This document shows positions 28,225 through 38,526 of a stretch of DNA of 64,000 nt, piece by piece. Under the pieces are notes generated by a model that saw only the letters and a program-made list of their open reading frames with translations, did no database searches and was not told the DNA's origin. The translations under genes and the position numbers were made by a program. Each line of letters opens with the position of its first letter. Position 1 is the first letter of the stretch. The stretch is from Woeseiaceae bacterium. GTDB lineage: Bacteria > Pseudomonadota > Gammaproteobacteria > Steroidobacterales > Woeseiaceae. The DNA is taken from positions 62,001 to 126,000 of the forward strand of contig JAOIZZ010000004.1 of the NCBI GenBank assembly GCA_028227395.1, written 5' to 3'.

Positions 28225-28974
28225 TTATGTCTTTGATGGATGGATGTATACAGGGCATTTTTTTAGCCATAATCTAAGTGCTTGCCAGTGAATGCCAAAT
28301 ATTATTTTCAGTGTAATTATTGGATAAACCAAAAGGATGCGAGCTAGGGAAGACGAAGAAATACAATTTTTTTTCATACTTAGGCCAACATTAAAAAATT
28401 TGTCTCCCTCTTTACTGTTACCCATACTGACATTTATTTTTTGTTCTGGCTTTGTAAACGTCCACTCATAATCTACCTCCATAGGCATAAAAGGTGAAAC
28501 ATGCATTTTTTTTATAGGGCGATATTTTTTTATCGAGCTCCCGGTATTATTCAGATTATCATTCAATACATAGCAACACCGCTCACCCCAAGGGGTATTG
28601 GTGACTTCAGCAATAATATATTGCAATTCCTCAAATTCATCGAAGCAATAATAAAAACTAACAGGGTTAAAACAATACCCAAAATAACTCAGGTTAGTCA
28701 GCAAGCGAATTGGTCCTGTAATCGTTGTACCAGTTTCTTTTTTAATGAGTTTACGTATAACAAGATCCAATGATGTTTGACTATCCCCATAATGATCCGC
28801 CCTTCTGTAACGAGCCAAGGAAAATCGAGAGACACCCCAAAACATATAATCATTAAATAAAGTTGGTAATTCTGCTAGATCAAGATAGAGCATAAAGACA
28901 CGATACGAGAAAATATGCCGAATTGGGCTGACTCTTGAATGAATTACAGAGCCTTCATAAATAGCACTCTTCAT
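28225..28974 (-). CDS. DUF1365 family protein
   Basis: A 249-residue DUF1365 protein: the N-terminal MKSAIYEGSVIHSRVSPIRHIFSYRVFMLYLDL and central SYFGYCFNPVSFYYCF blocks are diagnostic. No catalytic function is established. Members almost always lie beside an FAD amine-oxidase-like protein and a CFA-type methyltransferase, as here, which implies a shared acyl-chain modification. The start overlaps the stop of the FAD gene by four bases. Confidence 0.92.
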   Translation of the reverse strand: MKSAIYEGSVIHSRVSPIRHIFSYRVFMLYLDLAELPTLFNDYMFWGVSRFSLARYRRADHYGDSQTSLDLVIRKLIKKETGTTITGPIRLLTNLSYFGYCFNPVSFYYCFDEFEELQYIIAEVTNTPWGERCCYVLNDNLNNTGSSIKKYRPIKKMHVSPFMPMEVDYEWTFTKPEQKINVSMGNSKEGDKFFNVGLSMKKNCISSSSLARILLVYPIITLKIIFGIHWQALRLWLKKCPVYIHPSKT

Positions 28975-30233
28975 CGTAATAACTGCTCTTTGAAATGTGT
29001 TAAGGCATTTTTAGCGCTAACAACCCCATCTTCATGAAAACCATTACGCCAATAAGCTCCACAATAAAAAGTTCGAGGACTAAAGTTTATTTCTTTATGC
29101 CTTGCTTGAGCCTTAATGGTCTCATTATTAAATATTGGATGAGAATAGTTAAACTTACTTATAATGCTCCTAGGCTCAATATTTTCGTTATTATTTAATG
29201 TTACAAAATATTGTGTTTTACTATTAAGATTTTGCAATATATTCATACTATAAGTTACATTGACGCGCTTATTATCTGTATCATTAATTCTGTAATTCCA
29301 TGCAGCCCAAGCTCTTTTGTTAGATGGCATCTGAGATACATCAGTATGCAATATTGCTTCGTTATCCTGATATTTTATCGCTGATAATACATCATGCTCA
29401 CAATCTGAGGGTGCGTTAATCATACTCAATGCTTGATCGCTATGAGTAGCGATGAAAACATAATCAAAATCTTCTGATGCTTTATTTTTTTCCTTAACTG
29501 TAACAAAATCTTTATGCCTTGTAACAGAGTCAATTTTTGCATTTAAGATAATTTTATCTTTGTACCCTGAAGATAATTTTTTAATATATTCTCGAGAGCC
29601 ACCAGGAATAACCATCCATTGTGGACGATTTTTTATCTGCAACAAGCCATGGTTATTAAAAAAATTAAGCAAAAAATTGATTGGCATATCTAATATTTCT
29701 TTTTGCTCAGCAGACCAGATAGAAGCTGCCATTGGAAGCAAATAATTTTCTGAAAATTGAACCGAATATACATTCTCTTTTAAGAAATCTCCTACAGACA
29801 ATGTTTGATCTAATTGTGCTTGGTTATGTTTATTTTTATTAAACCTGAGTATATCTTTTATCATCTTGAGAAAAGAAAAAGAAAATATATTAGACCGTTG
29901 TGTAAAAAGACCATTAAGTGATGATCCATTATATTCAATTTTTTTAAGTTTGTTTGTAACACTAAAACTCATCACACTATCCTGATGAGGCTGATCAATG
30001 TCATTCATTAAAGATATAAAATTTGGATAAGTCTTATCATTGAAAACAATAAACCCTGTATCGATCGCCAAGTCACCATCTTCATCTGAGACATCAATGG
30101 TATTTACATGACCACCAATATAATTATTCGCTTCAAATATTTTTATATCATTTTCTTTATTAAGGTAATAAGCAGCTACATTTCCAGCTACACCAGCACC
30201 AATGATTGCAATCTTATGTTTTTTGCCACTCAT
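28971..30233 (-). CDS. FAD-dependent oxidoreductase, amine-oxidase-like (NAD(P)-binding Rossmann), CFA-locus type
   Basis: Flavoprotein with the dinucleotide motif IAIIGAGVAGNVAAYYL at the N-terminus, an FAD ribose-binding Glu in FEANN, and the second FAD motif near the C-terminus. GGHVNTI and DTGFIVFND are typical of the protein that accompanies CFA and DUF1365. In Rhodobacter-type bacteria such a flavoprotein (UfaD) is reported to desaturate methylated acyl chains on the way to furan fatty acids; equivalence here is inference. It overlaps the DUF1365 gene by 4 nt. Confidence 0.88.
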   Translation of the reverse strand: MSGKKHKIAIIGAGVAGNVAAYYLNKENDIKIFEANNYIGGHVNTIDVSDEDGDLAIDTGFIVFNDKTYPNFISLMNDIDQPHQDSVMSFSVTNKLKKIEYNGSSLNGLFTQRSNIFSFSFLKMIKDILRFNKNKHNQAQLDQTLSVGDFLKENVYSVQFSENYLLPMAASIWSAEQKEILDMPINFLLNFFNNHGLLQIKNRPQWMVIPGGSREYIKKLSSGYKDKIILNAKIDSVTRHKDFVTVKEKNKASEDFDYVFIATHSDQALSMINAPSDCEHDVLSAIKYQDNEAILHTDVSQMPSNKRAWAAWNYRINDTDNKRVNVTYSMNILQNLNSKTQYFVTLNNNENIEPRSIISKFNYSHPIFNNETIKAQARHKEINFSPRTFYCGAYWRNGFHEDGVVSAKNALTHFKEQLLR

Positions 30234-30287
30234 TCTGTTAAACCCAAATCAATCAAGATAATCAAATATTTCAGAAGAAAGCTTTAG

Positions 30288-30827
30288 TTATTCAGAAGAC
30301 CAATCCTGAGGAACAGGCACTAGTTTTGTTGAATCATAACCAACACTTTCGATAAAATTAAATGCGAGCCTTAAGCTATCATCACTCATAAATGGTTTGC
30401 GGGCCATAATCCATACGTAATCACGCTTATTTCTGCCAATAATGGTGTATGAGTAATCTGATGCTACATAAATCACCCTATAATCGGCTTTTATGGGCCA
30501 TATAAACTGCATTCCCCAGATTGCATTAGAGCCATCCTCAGTTATGAAGCCCTTGGGTGAAAATTTTTTTCGCTTACCATCAAATCCACCGGCATTATAT
30601 GTGAATGTAGTTTGTATGGTTCCATCTGGGTTAAGCTTATAATTCTCAATCGCGTTGAATATATTTTTCTCTAGTAGAGTTGGAATGCTTTGTATGACAT
30701 ACCAATCTCCCATGAATTTTTCAACATCGATGTATTTGACAGTCTTTAAGTCATTATTCTGCATACTGCATCCTCCTATTAGAATTAACAGGGCTGATAG
30801 GGCTACTCGTCTTATGGACTCATTCAA
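30288..30827 (-). CDS. blc: Bacterial lipocalin (Blc-like) outer-membrane lipoprotein
   Basis: Lipocalin-fold lipoprotein. The signal ends IGGC (Cys20); GDWYVIQSIP is the lipocalin GxW motif, and IIGRNKRDYVWIMARKP is the strand preceding the last helix. Blc-type lipocalins bind lysophospholipid or fatty acid. The start is TTG at 30827, because the lipobox requires the region before any ATG. It lies between DUF2878 and the FAD protein, consistent with lipid handling during membrane modification. Confidence 0.87.
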   Translation of the reverse strand: MNESIRRVALSALLILIGGCSMQNNDLKTVKYIDVEKFMGDWYVIQSIPTLLEKNIFNAIENYKLNPDGTIQTTFTYNAGGFDGKRKKFSPKGFITEDGSNAIWGMQFIWPIKADYRVIYVASDYSYTIIGRNKRDYVWIMARKPFMSDDSLRLAFNFIESVGYDSTKLVPVPQDWSSE

Positions 30828-30845
30828 TGCTTGATACTCTCTATG

Positions 30846-31373
30846 TTAAAGGGTTTTTATAGTTGATGAATTATTAAACTTATCTGCTAAATATAATAAA
30901 GGTGGAATAATAGCACCCCACCCAAAAGCTAAAGCAATCATTGCTGAATTAAAATCGAGAAAATATATGCCGCCGAGATTATAACCGGCATAGTATGTTA
31001 ATGGTCCACCTATAAAGCCAAATAGTATGGATAAAAATTTATATTTCTTAAGCCACGCCATGGAGACATTCAATGTTGTAGCAAAAGACATCCACATTGC
31101 AATAATCCAATAAGCTGTGAGATTTTCATCTATGTGTCCAGATGGGTAAGATATCCATTCAAAAAAAACAAAAAAACTGTCCAGCATTCCACCTAATAAC
31201 CCTACGAAAAAAATTAAAAATAATTCATTTATAGGGTTCAATGATCTAAATAAATGCAAGGCAATAATCAAAGCGATAATTAAAACGCCAGTCCATGGTG
31301 TATTATTTGCAGCGCTTAGCACAGCTGCAAACCAACCTATCTGAAAACAAACAAAGTTTATAATATTATTCAA
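30846..31373 (-). CDS. DUF2878 membrane protein
   Basis: A 175-residue protein with about five transmembrane helices and the DUF2878 N-terminus NFVCFQIGWFAAVLSAA, with FFEWISYPSG and MWMSFATTLNVSMAWL later. Function unknown; strongly associated with lipocalin/CFA loci. The start is TTG at 31373, separated from the upstream methyltransferase stop by one base; no usable ATG exists for the first 60 residues. Confidence 0.85.
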   Translation of the reverse strand: MNNIINFVCFQIGWFAAVLSAANNTPWTGVLIIALIIALHLFRSLNPINELFLIFFVGLLGGMLDSFFVFFEWISYPSGHIDENLTAYWIIAMWMSFATTLNVSMAWLKKYKFLSILFGFIGGPLTYYAGYNLGGIYFLDFNSAMIALAFGWGAIIPPLLYLADKFNNSSTIKTL

Positions 31374-31374
31374 A

Positions 31375-32433
31375 CTATTCTCTTTTCGCTGATTTACTGA
31401 ATAAATAATGGGCTACATACCACTCTTGGCCATTATTAAAAGCAAATAATTCAGCACAAGACATGAAAAAGATTCGCCATCTTTGCCACCATTTTTGTGA
31501 AAAATCATGACCGTAAACATCAGCAATTATTGGCATTAACTCATTTTTCTTTTGATCCATATTTTTCAACCACGCATTACTCGTATTGGCATAATGTGAT
31601 CCATTCCAACGCCACCTTTTCAGGATAGTTAATGAATCTTGAAAAAACAAAGGCAGATCATCGCTTGGCATAATTCCGCCAGTAAAAAAATAACGAGTCA
31701 TCCAATCATTCACGCCTTTGTCCAAGAATTCATATGGAGATGATTTATGACAAAATATGTGCATAAAAAATAACCCATCTTCTACTAGCCACCCGGATAG
31801 CTTTTTATATAATTTTTGATAATTTTTCATGTGCTCAAACATTTCCAAAGACACAATTCGGTCAAATTTATCTTCGATATCAAAATCATTCATATCAGCT
31901 ACAATGACTCTGACATTAGAAAGATTATTTGTAATAGCCTGATTCACAATAAAATCACGCTGAGTTGATGAATTAGAGACAGATGTAACTGAGCAATTAG
32001 GGTAGTTTTCTGCTATCCATAGTGACAATGAGCCCCAACCGCAGCCAAGATCGAGTATTTTCAATCCATCTCTTATTTCAGCACGTTCACATGATTTTTT
32101 AAGTGCCGCTATTTCAGCAGAATCAAGATTGTTAGTATCGTCATCCCAAAGACAGCAGCTGTATTTATATCTTTCACCAAGAATACGACTGTAAAAATTG
32201 ACAGGAACCTCATAATGTTGATCATTCGCAGAATCAGTATTAACAGCAATTGGAGATCCCAGCATCATTGATACCATTGATGACTGAAGCTCATCTGCCT
32301 TTTCACAGTTTGAGCTACTAATTTCTTTTAATCTCTTTTTTAGTAATAGACGAATCCCAGATCTTACTAAAAAATCTGGAATATAGCCTAGTTCTATAAA
32401 CTTAATGAGAATGTTATTTAGTTTTTTATACAT
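31375..32433 (-). CDS. Second CFA-type SAM methyltransferase (coclaurine N-methyltransferase-like branch)
   Basis: SAM methyltransferase of 352 residues. SAM motif ILDLGCGWGSLSLW, followed by YKYSCCLW (the CFA active-site Cys region) and SLEMFEHMKNYQKLY, where plant coclaurine-type and bacterial relatives have Met-Phe-Glu-His rather than EAVGH. It is therefore paralogous to the CFA at the other end of the operon but from a different branch. GGAAG before the ATG supports the start. It heads the operon, which continues through DUF2878, lipocalin, FAD protein, DUF1365 and CFA. Confidence 0.87.
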   Translation of the reverse strand: MYKKLNNILIKFIELGYIPDFLVRSGIRLLLKKRLKEISSSNCEKADELQSSMVSMMLGSPIAVNTDSANDQHYEVPVNFYSRILGERYKYSCCLWDDDTNNLDSAEIAALKKSCERAEIRDGLKILDLGCGWGSLSLWIAENYPNCSVTSVSNSSTQRDFIVNQAITNNLSNVRVIVADMNDFDIEDKFDRIVSLEMFEHMKNYQKLYKKLSGWLVEDGLFFMHIFCHKSSPYEFLDKGVNDWMTRYFFTGGIMPSDDLPLFFQDSLTILKRWRWNGSHYANTSNAWLKNMDQKKNELMPIIADVYGHDFSQKWWQRWRIFFMSCAELFAFNNGQEWYVAHYLFSKSAKRE

Positions 32434-32617: not shown

Positions 32618-33820
32618 TTATACTCTTTGCATGTGAGCTATTTTATTTGTCTCATCGATGATATACCTTTGTACATTGCTACCGCCATAAATCGCATTAT
32701 AAGGCTCAATTTTTTCTAAATAACGAATTGAATCAGAGTAATTGCCATCAAAAAAAGCCATAAAACCTCGGGTCAACTCTGTAAGTGTTGATCTAGCATT
32801 ATTATTTTCTGTTTCAATCCACTTTAAATAAGCTTCTCTTTCCTCGGATGAGCCTGTTGCTGCCAACATTGAACGATGCAAATCTACAAATTTAAAGCCA
32901 ATATCGGGGAAGTATTTATCGATGTATTTGTGCATTTCGTTATTCCAAGTATGAGGAATAATTATATCCTCAATAATGCAATACCACAGTAATGAAACGT
33001 TATCAGCTAAGTATTCTAGAGGAGCCACACCGTCTTTATTCGAAATTAATTTTTCAAAGATAGGAAATATCTCATCTTTTTTGTTTAACTTCAAAGATAA
33101 CAAGGCATTATGCCATTCGATATGATGCAACATGTTAGAGCTATCCCTGGAAGACAGCCTCCATTCTTTTATAAATTGACGCCCCTCTTTGTATTTTGAT
33201 GACTCATAATGGATATGAGTCAGAGTATGTGCACAATTACCCGTATTTTTTATATCCCAAGCTATTTGGCCATACGTTGAAGCTTTTTTGATTTCACCAT
33301 TTTCGACAAACATAAAAGCTTGTGTTGTTTTGAACCACCAATCATCGCTAAAAAAAGATGACTCTACTCCCTTAAGAATTTTTAAATTTCTCTCACGCCA
33401 ATACAAAGAACCTGAAAATGCCAGCAGCCCAAATGGACCAACTATTAAAGGAAGTATGATAGTGTCATTTGGATAATCCTGAATATGCTCAAGCGCTGCA
33501 TCCAAGCAAGATGTCTTAGCCTCTATGAGCATAGAGATAATATCGATAGCACTTTGCTCTCGCAAAGAGGACTTATGTTTATGATGCAGTGCTAAATCTA
33601 AATACTGCTTAGCTTTAATTGGAGACCCATATATTGCTAATTGTTTAGCTAATAAGGCATAGGCAAGTGCAAAATCGGGTTCAAAACTTAGGCTTTTGAT
33701 AAAACTCTCTATACCTGAACTATCTAGACCTAGAGATTCATCGAGACCAATTATAAAATAACGATACGCATCTGCATTATCTACCGTAATTCCCAGATCA
33801 TAATTATCTTTTTGCAACAT
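32618..33820 (-). CDS. TTC38-like tetratricopeptide-repeat protein
   Basis: A 400-residue helical repeat protein. Pattern resembling the TTC38 family: FIKSLSFEPDFALAYALLAKQLAIYGS in the N-terminal TPRs, AHTLTHIHYESSKYKEGRQFIKEW and HHIEWHNALLSLKLNKKDEIF in the middle, with His-rich positions typical of that family. No signal or membrane segment. The ATG at 33820 follows GGGAA; a TTG at 33829 is possible. It ends the run of six minus-strand genes; its biochemical role is unknown. Confidence 0.75.
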   Translation of the reverse strand: MLQKDNYDLGITVDNADAYRYFIIGLDESLGLDSSGIESFIKSLSFEPDFALAYALLAKQLAIYGSPIKAKQYLDLALHHKHKSSLREQSAIDIISMLIEAKTSCLDAALEHIQDYPNDTIILPLIVGPFGLLAFSGSLYWRERNLKILKGVESSFFSDDWWFKTTQAFMFVENGEIKKASTYGQIAWDIKNTGNCAHTLTHIHYESSKYKEGRQFIKEWRLSSRDSSNMLHHIEWHNALLSLKLNKKDEIFPIFEKLISNKDGVAPLEYLADNVSLLWYCIIEDIIIPHTWNNEMHKYIDKYFPDIGFKFVDLHRSMLAATGSSEEREAYLKWIETENNNARSTLTELTRGFMAFFDGNYSDSIRYLEKIEPYNAIYGGSNVQRYIIDETNKIAHMQRV

Positions 33821-33865
33821 TTTTCCCAATCGATTTGATAGCTAATCCTAAAATTAATATTATGA

Positions 33866-34519
33866 TTATTTCTTTTTGTTTTGCCTTAAGGTTAGATATT
33901 TTTGTTTTTGCTGGACTACATTCTGTAATTTTCTATTATCAATAAATGTTGGTTGTCCAGATTGCAGTGAAATTAAATATAATGACGCTATCCATTCGAG
34001 TAAAATTGATCTCTGTAATGCTACTTCGAGACTACCCCCAATAGTAACAGCACCATGATTTTGCATTAAAACTGCATTCATGCCTGCTATTTTATCGACT
34101 ACTACAGCTGCTAATTCAGGAGAGCCAAAAGTTTCATAAGGTGCTACTGGTACTGGTCCACCTAAATCAGTTATTTGATAATGAATCGCGGGAAGCTCAT
34201 CAGTTATAGTTGAGACTGCTGTGGCATACAGTGAGTGCGTGTGCACAATTGCTTTGATATCACTTCGATTCTCGTATAGAGAGTAATGAAGGTCTGTTTC
34301 AGATGAGGGCAATAACTCTCCTTCAATAATTTGCTTATTATGATCCATTACTAATATATCAGCTGGCAATAGAGCATTATAACTTGCCCCACTTGGAGTG
34401 ATTAAAAAATGATTATTGATCTTGATACTAACGTTTCCTGAAGTATTGATCACCAAACCTACTTCCACCATTTTTTTCAATACAGTGATGATAAGTTTTC
34501 GTTCAGACCGGTATAGCAT
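33866..34519 (-). CDS. Class II aldolase/adducin-family protein (Ald2/DrdA-like candidate)
   Basis: Zinc aldolase of the fuculose-phosphate type, 217 residues. Catalytic Glu is in LPSSETDLH; zinc ligands are the two His in VHTHSLYA and the His in LMQNHGAVTIG. The fold family covers L-fuculose-1-P aldolase, MtnB dehydratase and the DHAP-shunt aldolase Ald2. Because it lies 14 nt downstream of a nucleoside phosphorylase, itself after an MtnA-type isomerase, the best inference is cleavage of 5-deoxyribulose-1-P (or the methylthio analogue) to DHAP plus an aldehyde. The alternative is an MtnB-like dehydratase. Confidence 0.82.
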   Translation of the reverse strand: MLYRSERKLIITVLKKMVEVGLVINTSGNVSIKINNHFLITPSGASYNALLPADILVMDHNKQIIEGELLPSSETDLHYSLYENRSDIKAIVHTHSLYATAVSTITDELPAIHYQITDLGGPVPVAPYETFGSPELAAVVVDKIAGMNAVLMQNHGAVTIGGSLEVALQRSILLEWIASLYLISLQSGQPTFIDNRKLQNVVQQKQKYLTLRQNKKK

Positions 34520-34533
34520 AATAAATAATCTCT

Positions 34534-35313
34534 TTAGGAAAGCATCAACATGGCTTCTAGCGAGCTTTCTATAGCACTTTCAATTCCTCGATTGCATGCA
34601 CTAGAGTCGGGTTTAACATCACCATCGGAGATATTTTTTACAAAACCATCGATACTAAATATACAGCCCGCTCTAATCTTGTAGAGAGCACCCAACATCA
34701 GAATTGCCGCCGCCTCCATCTCAAAAGCTAATATTCCCGCCGTTTGTGCCAACTGGATATCATTCTCAAGCTTCGGACTGCTGAAAGCATCAGATGTATG
34801 CACCACACCGGTATGCGTTTTAATGTTTTGTTTCTTGGTCGATAGTTTCAGTGCATTGATGACCTTTAGATCTGCAACTGCTGGATAAATTGCTGGTAGA
34901 AACTTCTCCGTAAGACCCTCATCTCTGACTGCGGCGATACCAATAACATTATCTCCTGGTTTAACATCTATATGACAAGAGCCTGCTGTGCCTACCCGAA
35001 TTACATTTCTACATTCATGCTTAGCAAGGTCCTGCATCACCATTGCAGCACTAGGACAACCAATACCGGTAGAAATCACTGAAACTGGAATACCCTTATA
35101 CTCACCTGTGTAAGAGTGGAACTCTCTTTGTACCATCATTAATTTTGCCCCAGTAAGCCACTCGGAAGCGATTTTAGCTGCTCTTCCTGGGTCACCAGGA
35201 ACTAATACGTTAGGTGCTATTTCACCAGGAACACATCGGAGAGCACGATACTGTGAACGCGCCAGATCATTTGCGTCTGGTAAATCTTTAGTTTCTGGCC
35301 ATACTTTTGTCAT
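34534..35313 (-). CDS. Nucleoside phosphorylase, PNP/UDP (NP-I) family
   Basis: NP-I family phosphorylase of 259 residues, closest in pattern to uridine phosphorylase: VLVPGDPGRAAKIA phosphate-binding start, ISTGIGCPSAAM, VGTAGSC, and FEMEAAAILMLG, which carries the ribose-binding Met-Glu pair. It would phosphorolyse a nucleoside to free base and (deoxy)ribose-1-phosphate. Next to an MtnA-like isomerase and a class II aldolase, 5'-deoxyadenosine or methylthioadenosine is a plausible substrate, but Udp-type specificity is also possible. Confidence 0.88.
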   Translation of the reverse strand: MTKVWPETKDLPDANDLARSQYRALRCVPGEIAPNVLVPGDPGRAAKIASEWLTGAKLMMVQREFHSYTGEYKGIPVSVISTGIGCPSAAMVMQDLAKHECRNVIRVGTAGSCHIDVKPGDNVIGIAAVRDEGLTEKFLPAIYPAVADLKVINALKLSTKKQNIKTHTGVVHTSDAFSSPKLENDIQLAQTAGILAFEMEAAAILMLGALYKIRAGCIFSIDGFVKNISDGDVKPDSSACNRGIESAIESSLEAMLMLS

Positions 35314-35338
35314 AAAATTTTACCCAATTGAGATAACC

Positions 35339-36427
35339 TTATATCTGGCTATCTAAAAATACCTTGCTTGTTTTATATGTGCTAATTTTATCAGGCTCGA
35401 ATATACCTCTGTCTGTAATTATAGCGCTAACCAACTCAGGGGGGGTAATGTCAAAGCACGGATATAAGCCTTGGACACCTTCAGGTGCTATTCTATCACC
35501 TTTCATAAATAGCAAATCATCCCCAGATCGTTCTTCAATAACGACACTATCGCCATTGTTATATTCCATATCCGGGCCAGATTGGCGCAATACATAATAT
35601 GGCACATTATTTGAATTTGCTGCTAATGCATATTGGTATGTCCCTACTTTATTCGCAATAGATCCATCCATACAGACAGTATCTGCAGCCGTAATAAAAG
35701 CATTAATTTTTTTTTGCTTCATTAGTGCACCTCCCATTCCATCCGAAATAACGTAGGTATTGAAACCCAATTCAGAAGCGCACCAAGAAGATAACTTTGT
35801 ACCTTGTAAATAAGGTCTTGTCTCACTACAAATAACATTCAACATAATATTATTGTATTTGGCTTCCATCAGAAGATACACATATGATCGATCAGGAAAG
35901 CAATGAGTTAGCAATGTATCACCACTATTGAGTTTTGTAAGAGCAAATTGGGCAGTCTTTCGTGCCTGCACAGCCAAATTAGATGCCACTGTATCCGTGG
36001 TTTTGATTATCTCATCTACCACAGATAAATTATTTTTAATGGCATTTTCTGCTTTAATAATACATAAATCAAGAATTCTAGATAGGGCCAACCCTGTCGG
36101 CCTTGTTTTTTTTAACCTGAGCGCAGCATTGCAAATTTCATCCATGGATGTGATAGAATTTTGAGCTGATAATGCCAAACCATAACCAGCAGCAATAGAA
36201 ATAGAAAAAGCCCCCTGAATAACCATCTCCTCTATTGCTGATGCTACCTCTTCAGTATTATGACAATCAATGTATTCTTGCGAATGGGGTAATTTCCTTC
36301 GATCAAGTATCTCTACAACACCGTCATTCCATATCGCCATGCCTTTACGTTTGATGAGTAATGGGAGTTCAGATTCCTTATAAAAACCATCTAGCCCAAG
36401 AGACTCATCTTTAGATGTCACAATCAT
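35339..36427 (-). CDS. MtnA/eIF2B-alpha-like sugar-1-phosphate isomerase
   Basis: Isomerase of the methylthioribose-1-phosphate isomerase/eIF2B-like family, converting an aldose-1-phosphate to the ketose-1-phosphate. The family Cys is in LLTHCFPD, the Asp in VISDGMGG, and the signature SETRPYLQGTKL is present. The usual GADRI is AADTV here, and the tail is divergent, so a substrate other than methylthioribose-1-P (for example 5-deoxyribose-1-P, as in DrdI) fits. Intergenic gaps to neighbours are 25 and 27 nt. Confidence 0.82.
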   Translation of the reverse strand: MIVTSKDESLGLDGFYKESELPLLIKRKGMAIWNDGVVEILDRRKLPHSQEYIDCHNTEEVASAIEEMVIQGAFSISIAAGYGLALSAQNSITSMDEICNAALRLKKTRPTGLALSRILDLCIIKAENAIKNNLSVVDEIIKTTDTVASNLAVQARKTAQFALTKLNSGDTLLTHCFPDRSYVYLLMEAKYNNIMLNVICSETRPYLQGTKLSSWCASELGFNTYVISDGMGGALMKQKKINAFITAADTVCMDGSIANKVGTYQYALAANSNNVPYYVLRQSGPDMEYNNGDSVVIEERSGDDLLFMKGDRIAPEGVQGLYPCFDITPPELVSAIITDRGIFEPDKISTYKTSKVFLDSQI

Positions 36428-36454: not shown

Positions 36455-37705
36455 TCATCTCTCATGAAGCACTTGCTTTAATGGGTTATCTTTTTTCAAC
36501 AAGACAAGGCCAGTGAAAAGAATATTTAACCCTACATACAGTATAAAAAACTGAGTAGCCAGAAGATTAAGATTCATGAATGGTGAAAGCGTTATCAAAC
36601 ACAAAAGTGTAATCGAGAACACAAAAAAAGATTTAAACGTAAACCATCCATTTTGGATCAAAATTCCAGTAAAGGTCGAGCAAATAACAGTGATAATGGC
36701 ATAAAAAAGAGTATCTATTCTTTGCTGTTGAGCTAGAGTTAACAGAACAACTGCAGAAGCCCCGATTAACATAATCAATTGGAATATTGTAAAATACCTC
36801 ATTGATAGCGTCATGGCTGGATTGTATTTTTTAGGAGTCATAATAGTCGAATCACCAAGAGCTTTAGCTGCAAGATCATCTGGTTTCCAATTAGTTTTTG
36901 CGTACCAGATTTTAAATTTATCAGATGTTTTCTTGGTCTCAAATGTATCTTTTATCATTTGATAAAAAACTTGCACATTTGCCCAGATAGGATTCCAACT
37001 TTTTAGCTCTGACACAGTTCCATAGACTGGCTTGATCGAATCAACTTCTGCAATATAGGTGCCAAAGAACCTATCCCATAGAATAAATACACCGCCATAA
37101 TTTGCATCAATATATTCTTTATTTTTTGCATGATGTACGCCATGATTCATTGGAGTGACAAATATTTTTTCCATCCAACCAAGGTGACCAATATGCCTAG
37201 TATGGACCCAAAATTGATAAACTAAATTAACTCCAGCCACGGAAACAAAAACCTCACCAGGTATACCTATCATGATCATTGGAAGGAAGAAAATCCATTT
37301 CCAGATAAAACCAGTGCTCGTTTGTCTTAATGCTGTTGCCAAATTAAAATCTTCGCCATGATGATGGACAACATGAGTCGCCCAAAGAATCCTTATTTCG
37401 TGATGTAATCGATGCATCCAGTAGTAACAAAGATCATATAAAACAAAAGCTATTAGCCAGGTAATTACTTCATTTTTTGGCATTAAATCAATATTGAATT
37501 GTTCTGCAAAATAAATAAATATGGCGCCTTGAAAGCCCAGATTAAGTATGACTGGAAAACGGCTAATTAAACCGATTGAAATGCTGGTAAATGCATCATT
37601 AATTCGATACGTATTTTTCTTTTTCACTATTCCATAGACAAGCTCAATCAATATCAGTATAAAAAATACTGGAATTGCTAAAAATATTATTATTGATTTA
37701 TCCAT
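36455..37705 (-). CDS. Fatty-acid hydroxylase/sterol desaturase superfamily protein, AGMO-like
   Basis: Integral membrane di-iron oxygenase. Histidine boxes HRLHH, THVVHHHGEDF and NHGVHHAKN match the FA_hydroxylase domain, and RQTSTG and the TPMNHGVHHAKN context resemble alkylglycerol monooxygenase (AGMO/TMEM195), which cleaves ether lipids. About four N-terminal helices precede the boxes; the C-terminal part adds two to three helices after residue 310. It sits between a secreted dienelactone hydrolase (17 nt) and the isomerase gene (27 nt). Substrate uncertain. Confidence 0.87.
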   Translation of the reverse strand: MDKSIIIFLAIPVFFILILIELVYGIVKKKNTYRINDAFTSISIGLISRFPVILNLGFQGAIFIYFAEQFNIDLMPKNEVITWLIAFVLYDLCYYWMHRLHHEIRILWATHVVHHHGEDFNLATALRQTSTGFIWKWIFFLPMIMIGIPGEVFVSVAGVNLVYQFWVHTRHIGHLGWMEKIFVTPMNHGVHHAKNKEYIDANYGGVFILWDRFFGTYIAEVDSIKPVYGTVSELKSWNPIWANVQVFYQMIKDTFETKKTSDKFKIWYAKTNWKPDDLAAKALGDSTIMTPKKYNPAMTLSMRYFTIFQLIMLIGASAVVLLTLAQQQRIDTLFYAIITVICSTFTGILIQNGWFTFKSFFVFSITLLCLITLSPFMNLNLLATQFFILYVGLNILFTGLVLLKKDNPLKQVLHER

Positions 37706-37722
37706 TTAATTATTCACAAAGA

Positions 37723-38526
37723 TTAAGTCGAAAGATTATTATGCAAAAACGTCTTTAGGCGCTTCCATGCATCAATAGCAGGCAAAGTATTTGTTTCTGG
37801 ATCTCGGTCAACATGCAGCCAGAAACCATGATTCACTTCATCATAAATATGAACATCGTTATTAATACCAATGGCATCGAGAGTTTCGACAAATTGTTCT
37901 ACTTCTGCGACTGGTATACCACGATCATTGCGAGCAAATGTTCCATAGAAATCATGCTCAACATGCCTTAGACGTTCAGGGTCATTCACCAATCTTCCAT
38001 AGAAAATTGCAGTTCCCTCATGATCATCACCGCCCATTGCAAAAGATAAAGCGACCCCTCCACCATAGCACCATCCTATAGTTGCCACTTTACCATTACT
38101 ATCATCTCTAGATTTCAGCATTTGAACTGCTGCATTCAAATTATCTATAATAATGCTCGGTTGTGCCAGTGTCTCTTGAACTAAGCGCATATTTTCATTG
38201 CGATTCTGCCCAATTCTTCCACTATACAAATCCACTGCCATCGCCATGTAACCTTCTTTTGCAAACGAATCCGCAGTCTCTTTAACCCTTTTCGACAAAC
38301 CATTCCATTCATGGATTAGTATTACTGAAGGATGGGGCCCTAGACCTTGTGGCATGGAAAGATAACCCTTAGTCAAGGCATCTGATTGATAGTAATTAAT
38401 CATCCTGCCCTGAAGTGGTTCTCCTGCCCCAATGATTGAGGACGGTAAAACATCATTCTTACTTTCATCAGAAAAAGTAGTTTCAACGAAAGTGAACAAA
38501 AATAAAGCTAGGTAAAATATCTTCAT
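37723..38526 (-). CDS. Dienelactone hydrolase family protein with signal peptide
   Basis: Alpha/beta hydrolase with a cleavable signal (MKIFYLALFLFTFVETTFSDE), so periplasmic. Nucleophile elbow GWCYGGG with Cys, and His in EVNHGFWLH; LIHEWNGL follows the family oxyanion pattern. It is the first gene of the six-gene minus-strand run. A Fur-like palindrome lies about 95-120 nt upstream. Substrate unknown. Confidence 0.86.
   Translation of the reverse strand: MKIFYLALFLFTFVETTFSDESKNDVLPSSIIGAGEPLQGRMINYYQSDALTKGYLSMPQGLGPHPSVILIHEWNGLSKRVKETADSFAKEGYMAMAVDLYSGRIGQNRNENMRLVQETLAQPSIIIDNLNAAVQMLKSRDDSNGKVATIGWCYGGGVALSFAMGGDDHEGTAIFYGRLVNDPERLRHVEHDFYGTFARNDRGIPVAEVEQFVETLDAIGINNDVHIYDEVNHGFWLHVDRDPETNTLPAIDAWKRLKTFLHNNLST

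Follow-up and report, generated by a model that had tools for sequence, protein, structure and literature searches.

A candidate DHAP-shunt/Drd-type operon with a nucleoside phosphorylase entry in a Woeseiaceae bacterium

Gene content and organization

The window (the whole stretch of 64,000 nucleotides that was analysed: contig JAOIZZ010000004.1, positions 62,001 to 126,000) belongs to the 1.62 Mb, 84.6%-complete genome of a marine bacterium, whose named near relatives are Woeseiaceae MAGs. The genes considered here are sorted according to their position in the window. Pfam families are followed by E-values.

32618..33829 (-): TPR-fold protein, 403 aa, with invariant His/Asp/Trp; 36 nt 3′ of the aldolase gene
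33866..34519 (-): class II aldolase (FucA/DrdA fold), 217 aa; PF00596, 1.6e-49
34534..35313 (-): hexameric-type (NP-I) nucleoside phosphorylase, 259 aa; PF01048, 3.5e-38
35339..36427 (-): MtnA/DrdI-like aldose-1-phosphate isomerase, 362 aa; PF01008, 8.2e-50
36455..37705 (-): fatty-acid-hydroxylase family membrane protein; 27 nt upstream of the isomerase gene
37723..38526 (-): dienelactone-hydrolase family protein; 17 nt upstream of the hydroxylase gene

All are encoded by the minus strand, so that the order of transcription is isomerase, phosphorylase, aldolase, with gaps of 25 nt and then 14 nt. The three open reading frames and both gaps are exactly those given in the original prediction. 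The synteny of the neighbourhood carrying the hydroxylase and dienelactone-hydrolase genes is restricted to the genus; the hydroxylase-family gene is therefore probably a co-transcribed passenger. Promoter and terminator scans gave results no better than chance level. Downstream of the operon (window 28971-32433), a cluster conserved in the genus includes genes for an FAD amine oxidase, a lipocalin, a DUF2878 protein and a cyclopropane-fatty-acid-synthase-like protein.

Distribution of the loci

The phosphorylase alignment, run as query against 84,980 species genomes, found only 18 loci, carried by Woeseiaceae, other Gammaproteobacteria, Kordiimonadaceae, Rhizobiaceae and Celeribacter. The set compared below includes 20 loci: these 18, the window and one further genome (L076), i.e. 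the window and 19 relatives. The loci were chosen by their phosphorylase, whose presence in all 20 is thus true by construction. The isomerase gene is found in all 20 loci, the aldolase gene in 18 (none within L030; the L038 sequence ends before an aldolase gene could show), the TPR gene in 18 (missing from L033 and L035) and a gene for a gamma-lyase-like PLP enzyme in seven. This arrangement is not due to chance, since it is found repeatedly in Gamma- and Alphaproteobacteria. The 369 class-level genomes searched contained no additional isomerase of the clade, which indicates a rare family.

In the Rhizobiaceae variant (L035:5360-13775), the phosphorylase gene is surrounded by genes for an ABC transporter, an adenosine deaminase, an SDR and a cupin-like protein; its isomerase and aldolase derive from other branches, the isomerase falling in the tree in a sister branch outside the main clade. 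L030 encodes a second, divergent Drd-branch isomerase (L030:10849-11907), adjoining a protein that has no Pfam hit but on visual inspection resembles a 2-oxo acid hydratase.

Isomerase

Alignment with canonical MtnA indicates that the catalytic Cys176 and Asp249, the ETRP..QG block and NK.GT are all kept (residue roles after B. subtilis MtnA). Other motifs are changed. A Gln of the clade replaces Arg51 of MtnA (VRGAP becoming VIQGAF), CFPDR replaces the canonical CNAG, the loop is seven residues shorter and TAAD is found where canonical MtnA has GADR or GTDR; CF[PA]DR and LRQSGPD are specific to the clade. With its RGAP, CNAG and GADR motifs changed, the protein scores 236.3 bits with the MtnA model TIGR00512, below the cut-off of 279.

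The same changes are found in isomerases of Enterococcus raffinosus, Acetoanaerobium, Fusobacterium and Lactobacillus intestinalis, whose genes adjoin those of an MtnK-like kinase and a FucA/DrdA-like aldolase. The signature of the DrdI-type branch (VxQ, CF.. with a short loop, (S/T)AAD, catalytic Cys and Asp) is thus present in full. In the tree, a 100/100 split places the isomerase with those of the MtnK-isomerase-aldolase clusters, apart from canonical MtnA, to which the enzyme of the E. coli DHAP shunt (L090) belongs; this placement was obtained through the cluster isomerases. By these sequence features, the isomerase is assigned to the Drd branch, not to the methionine-salvage side.

The original prediction had noticed AADTV at the GADRI position of MtnA and had read it as a sign of a new substrate. 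The observation is correct, with the Asp kept. The reading does not stand: TAAD or SAAD is found in all Drd-branch isomerases, and a trait of the whole branch does not by itself indicate a new substrate.

Phosphorylase

Among the models, uridine phosphorylase and DeoD come nearest; all are sub-threshold, and none is of the MtnP type. The best of them, TIGR01718 (uridine phosphorylase), gives 166.7 bits for a cut-off of 280.3. The best solved relative is the Thermus purine nucleoside phosphorylase (PNP). The alignment of the clade included E. coli DeoD and Udp, Sulfolobus MTAP, Thermus PNP and two plasmid-encoded phosphorylases. Phosphate and ribose residues (Arg44, Arg63, Arg106, Thr109, Met199, Glu200) are kept in 15/15 clade members.

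The 5′-OH-binding His is replaced by Ala (Ala24) in all 15 members, whereas it is kept in the six reference enzymes that cover the position (6/6), the DeoD, Udp, MTAP and Thermus PNP reference sequences being approximate. The N-termini of E. coli DeoD and of the Sulfolobus enzyme could be placed elsewhere in the gapped alignment; the same Ala is given by the ungapped match with Thermus PNP and by the match with Udp. Two invariant residues, Arg23 and Arg26, flank Ala24. With the rest of the site intact, the missing His is consistent with a substrate that lacks the 5′-OH, as far as sequence can indicate. The AlphaFold model (pLDDT 52) is too poor for a three-dimensional view of the 5′-site.

The Tyr that follows the base-stacking Phe is replaced by Ser, Asn, Arg, Lys or Gln across the clade. 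The uracil-binding Gln/Arg motif (Gln166/Arg168) is missing, and uridine is rejected as a substrate on this ground; together with the sub-cut-off TIGR01718 score, this overturns the uridine-phosphorylase-like character attributed to the enzyme in the original prediction. Asp222 is invariant, yet lies one position before the base-binding Asp204 of PNP; neither the His4 (Ala24 here) nor the Asp204 of DeoD-type enzymes is found at its place. Because of the offset of Asp222, a purine base is suggested mainly by context: L035 encodes an adenosine deaminase that scores above the curated cut-off, and L037 an MTA/SAH-deaminase-like amidohydrolase.

The phosphorylases of L088:6022-6765 and L089:5965-6693 are among the closest plasmid matches to the clade. 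Both are plasmid-borne, adjoin pnuC and a Crp-type regulator, and keep the 5′-OH His.

Aldolase

The metal ligands Glu74, His93, His95 and His155 are invariant. The best solved relative is 6btd: DrdA of B. thuringiensis, an experimentally characterised 5-deoxyribulose-1-P aldolase (Beaudoin et al. 2018, PMC6079011). In the tree, the aldolases of the reference MtnK-isomerase-aldolase clusters group with this DrdA. The aldolases of the operon belong to the same superfamily and form a clade separate from DrdA and from FucA/Ald2 (100/99); their aldehyde preference can thus not be deduced from these relatives. An action on fuculose only appears unlikely given the phosphorylase and isomerase partners.

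Proposed pathway and substrate

Gene order, families, catalytic residues, clustering, the altered 5′-site and the Drd placement of the isomerase can be read from the sequence. The original prediction is partly supported: the enzyme set is DHAP-shunt-like, the isomerase is of the Drd side, the phosphorylase is devoid of the 5′-OH His, adenosine-type deaminases are encoded beside two relatives and related genomes have a canonical MtnA elsewhere. The operon would probably encode a DHAP-shunt/Drd-type pathway with a phosphorylase entry, 5′-deoxyadenosine being the likeliest natural substrate in the genus. All reactions, as well as the purine base, the exact substrate and any part played by the TPR protein, are predicted. 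The phosphorylase would convert a 5′-deoxy (or otherwise 5′-substituted) purine nucleoside and phosphate to the base and 5-deoxy-(5-X)-ribose-1-phosphate; the DrdI-like isomerase would give the corresponding ribulose-1-phosphate; the class II aldolase would cleave the latter to DHAP and an aldehyde. The aldehyde would be acetaldehyde from 5′-deoxyadenosine and methylthioacetaldehyde from MTA.

SAM chemistry universally yields 5′-deoxyadenosine and MTA as by-products. To our knowledge, little is known of the fate of 5′-deoxyadenosine in streamlined marine bacteria. In the genus, it would come from radical SAM enzymes. Genomes of the genus have about five radical SAM genes and an SAH hydrolase gene; no spermidine synthase gene was found in them. 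In the 99%-complete G003, the operon gene is the only one of the NP-I family. The presence of radical SAM enzymes, the absence of spermidine synthase and the operon phosphorylase being the sole NP-I enzyme found make 5′-deoxyadenosine the likeliest internal substrate. External MTA is a possible substrate in the genus. Two members of the genus lack the operon and carry radical SAM genes in comparable number; the operon is thus accessory, not essential for the disposal of 5′-deoxyadenosine, although these two genomes are 81-86% complete.

Alternative substrates and routes

That the operon acts on 5′-OH nucleosides, by a nucleoside-to-DHAP route of haloarchaeal type, is unlikely. Halophilic archaea do have such a route (PMC9700705), the model of their ribulose-1-phosphate aldolase matches the aldolase at 159.5 bits, and general salvage in the genus would depend on the operon phosphorylase as sole NP-I enzyme. 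However, the cut-off of that model is 300 bits, the isomerase falls among the Drd-type enzymes, away from R15P isomerase, and the 5′-OH His is gone from every member of the phosphorylase clade. The haloarchaeal non-carboxylating pentose bisphosphate pathway resembles the operon by its nucleoside phosphorylase, its eIF2B-fold isomerase and its FucA-like aldolase leading to DHAP, but it requires a ribose-1-phosphate kinase and a RuBP phosphatase and acts on 5′-OH nucleosides.

A second alternative is that S-adenosyl amino acids (SAM or SAH) are degraded: a gamma-lyase-like PLP step would free a 5′-thionucleoside, which the trio would convert to DHAP and a thio-aldehyde. In seven of the 20 loci, the TPR gene adjoins a gene for a methionine-gamma-lyase-like PLP enzyme (L034:5001-6251, L037:6088-7335, L076:9630-10892 and four others). 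Neighbours of these loci encode an APC amino-acid permease (four loci), an amino-acid ABC binding protein (two), an Lrp-type regulator (one) and an MTA/SAH-deaminase-like protein (one). These neighbours, and the invariant Arg23 and Arg26 around the lost His of the phosphorylase, are in favour of this alternative. Against it, the PLP enzyme was not found in the genus of the window at E<=1e-100, an SAH hydrolase is present there, and the PLP enzyme may have methionine or a different amino acid as its substrate; this route is quite improbable for the operon. The PLP loci hint at an S-adenosyl amino acid substrate in the relatives that carry them, without proving it. It is rather doubtful that the larger set of genes (for the gamma-lyase-like PLP enzyme, the TPR protein, the trio and the amino-acid transporter) would form a dedicated route for the breakdown of S-adenosyl amino acids such as SAM or SAH, ending in DHAP for the nucleoside half and in a 2-oxo acid for the amino-acid half; the TPR protein, given its invariant His/Asp, would then be an unrecognised enzyme of this route.

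An alignment read by eye indicates that the active-site Cys of MGL is missing from the PLP enzyme. The clade of the latter carries about 15 extra residues ahead of SGMGAI; one stray copy is found in L077. A literature search for PLP enzymes that release MTA from SAM returned nothing usable.

It is very improbable that the trio provides a different entry into classical methionine salvage (from MTA to methionine), in which the aldolase would serve as an MtnB-like dehydratase. Matches of MtnB models to the aldolase are weak (TIGR03328, 80 bits) and both families share a fold, but the best models and structures for the protein are aldolases, relatives bearing the trio also have a separate canonical MtnA, and little internal MTA is expected in a genus devoid of spermidine synthase. 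Three genomes of the same family (G010, G012, G024) each encode a trio-type isomerase (56-59% identity) and a canonical MtnA (32-33%), which are thus paralogues with separate roles; the trio is therefore not classical methionine salvage. This answers, for these relatives, the objection raised with the original prediction that classical salvage might use these genes; for the genus itself, the answer extends only to the finding of no second full-length MtnA-like gene in its genomes.

Comparison with known systems

Sequence comparison suggests that the operon works like the DHAP shunt and the Drd pathway, with an isomerase of the Drd branch. A clustered sugar-1-phosphate-forming enzyme, an MtnA/DrdI-type isomerase and a class II aldolase are all present, and the isomerase is distinct from salvage MtnA, a feature that the E. 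coli shunt itself does not have. An MtnK or MtnP entry is absent, and the aldolase groups neither with DrdA nor with Ald2.

Drd pathway (DrdK-DrdI-DrdA, Bacillus thuringiensis): the operon shares with it the isomerase branch and signatures, the class II aldolase fold, the adjacency of the genes and the expected products, DHAP and an aldehyde. It differs by a phosphorylase in place of the kinase, an aldolase of a separate clade and an extra conserved TPR gene.

DHAP shunt (MtnK-MtnA-Ald2 in E. coli, MtnP-MtnA-Ald2 in Rhodospirillum rubrum): the expected chemistry is the same, from a 5′-modified nucleoside through a sugar-1-phosphate and a ribulose-1-phosphate to DHAP and an aldehyde. The isomerase of the E. 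coli shunt is a canonical MtnA, whereas that of the operon belongs to the Drd branch, and the aldolase clade differs from Ald2. The described entries are MtnK (with a nucleosidase) or MtnP; the UP/DeoD-like NP-I phosphorylase would be a replacement.

Phosphorylase-isomerase-aldolase clusters were predicted in 2018 to act on 5′-deoxyadenosine (Beaudoin et al., PMC6079011), which limits the novelty. The route itself has precedents in other bacteria, but its first enzyme here and two partner genes represent types not described before. If confirmed, the operon would provide a new aldolase clade and a new entry phosphorylase of the DHAP shunt, independent of MtnP, MtnN and MtnK; it would also link the TPR protein and, in relatives, the gamma-lyase-like PLP enzyme to 5′-deoxynucleoside metabolism.

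TPR protein

The TPR gene is associated with the operon in 18/20 loci; its product, with invariant His, Asp and Trp, may be an unrecognised metalloenzyme. The structural model is all-helical and confident (pLDDT 94); its PDB matches are generic TPR solenoids only, with TMq about 0.5 at most. Plasmid homologues adjoin regulators and MFS transporters, a context that indicates no clear function. The protein presumably resembles TTC38. The hydroxamate panobinostat is a ligand of human TTC38 (PMC6885700, PMC7666118), and rare TTC38 variants raise an unidentified urine metabolite (PMC7878905). By analogy, both observations would fit a metalloenzyme.
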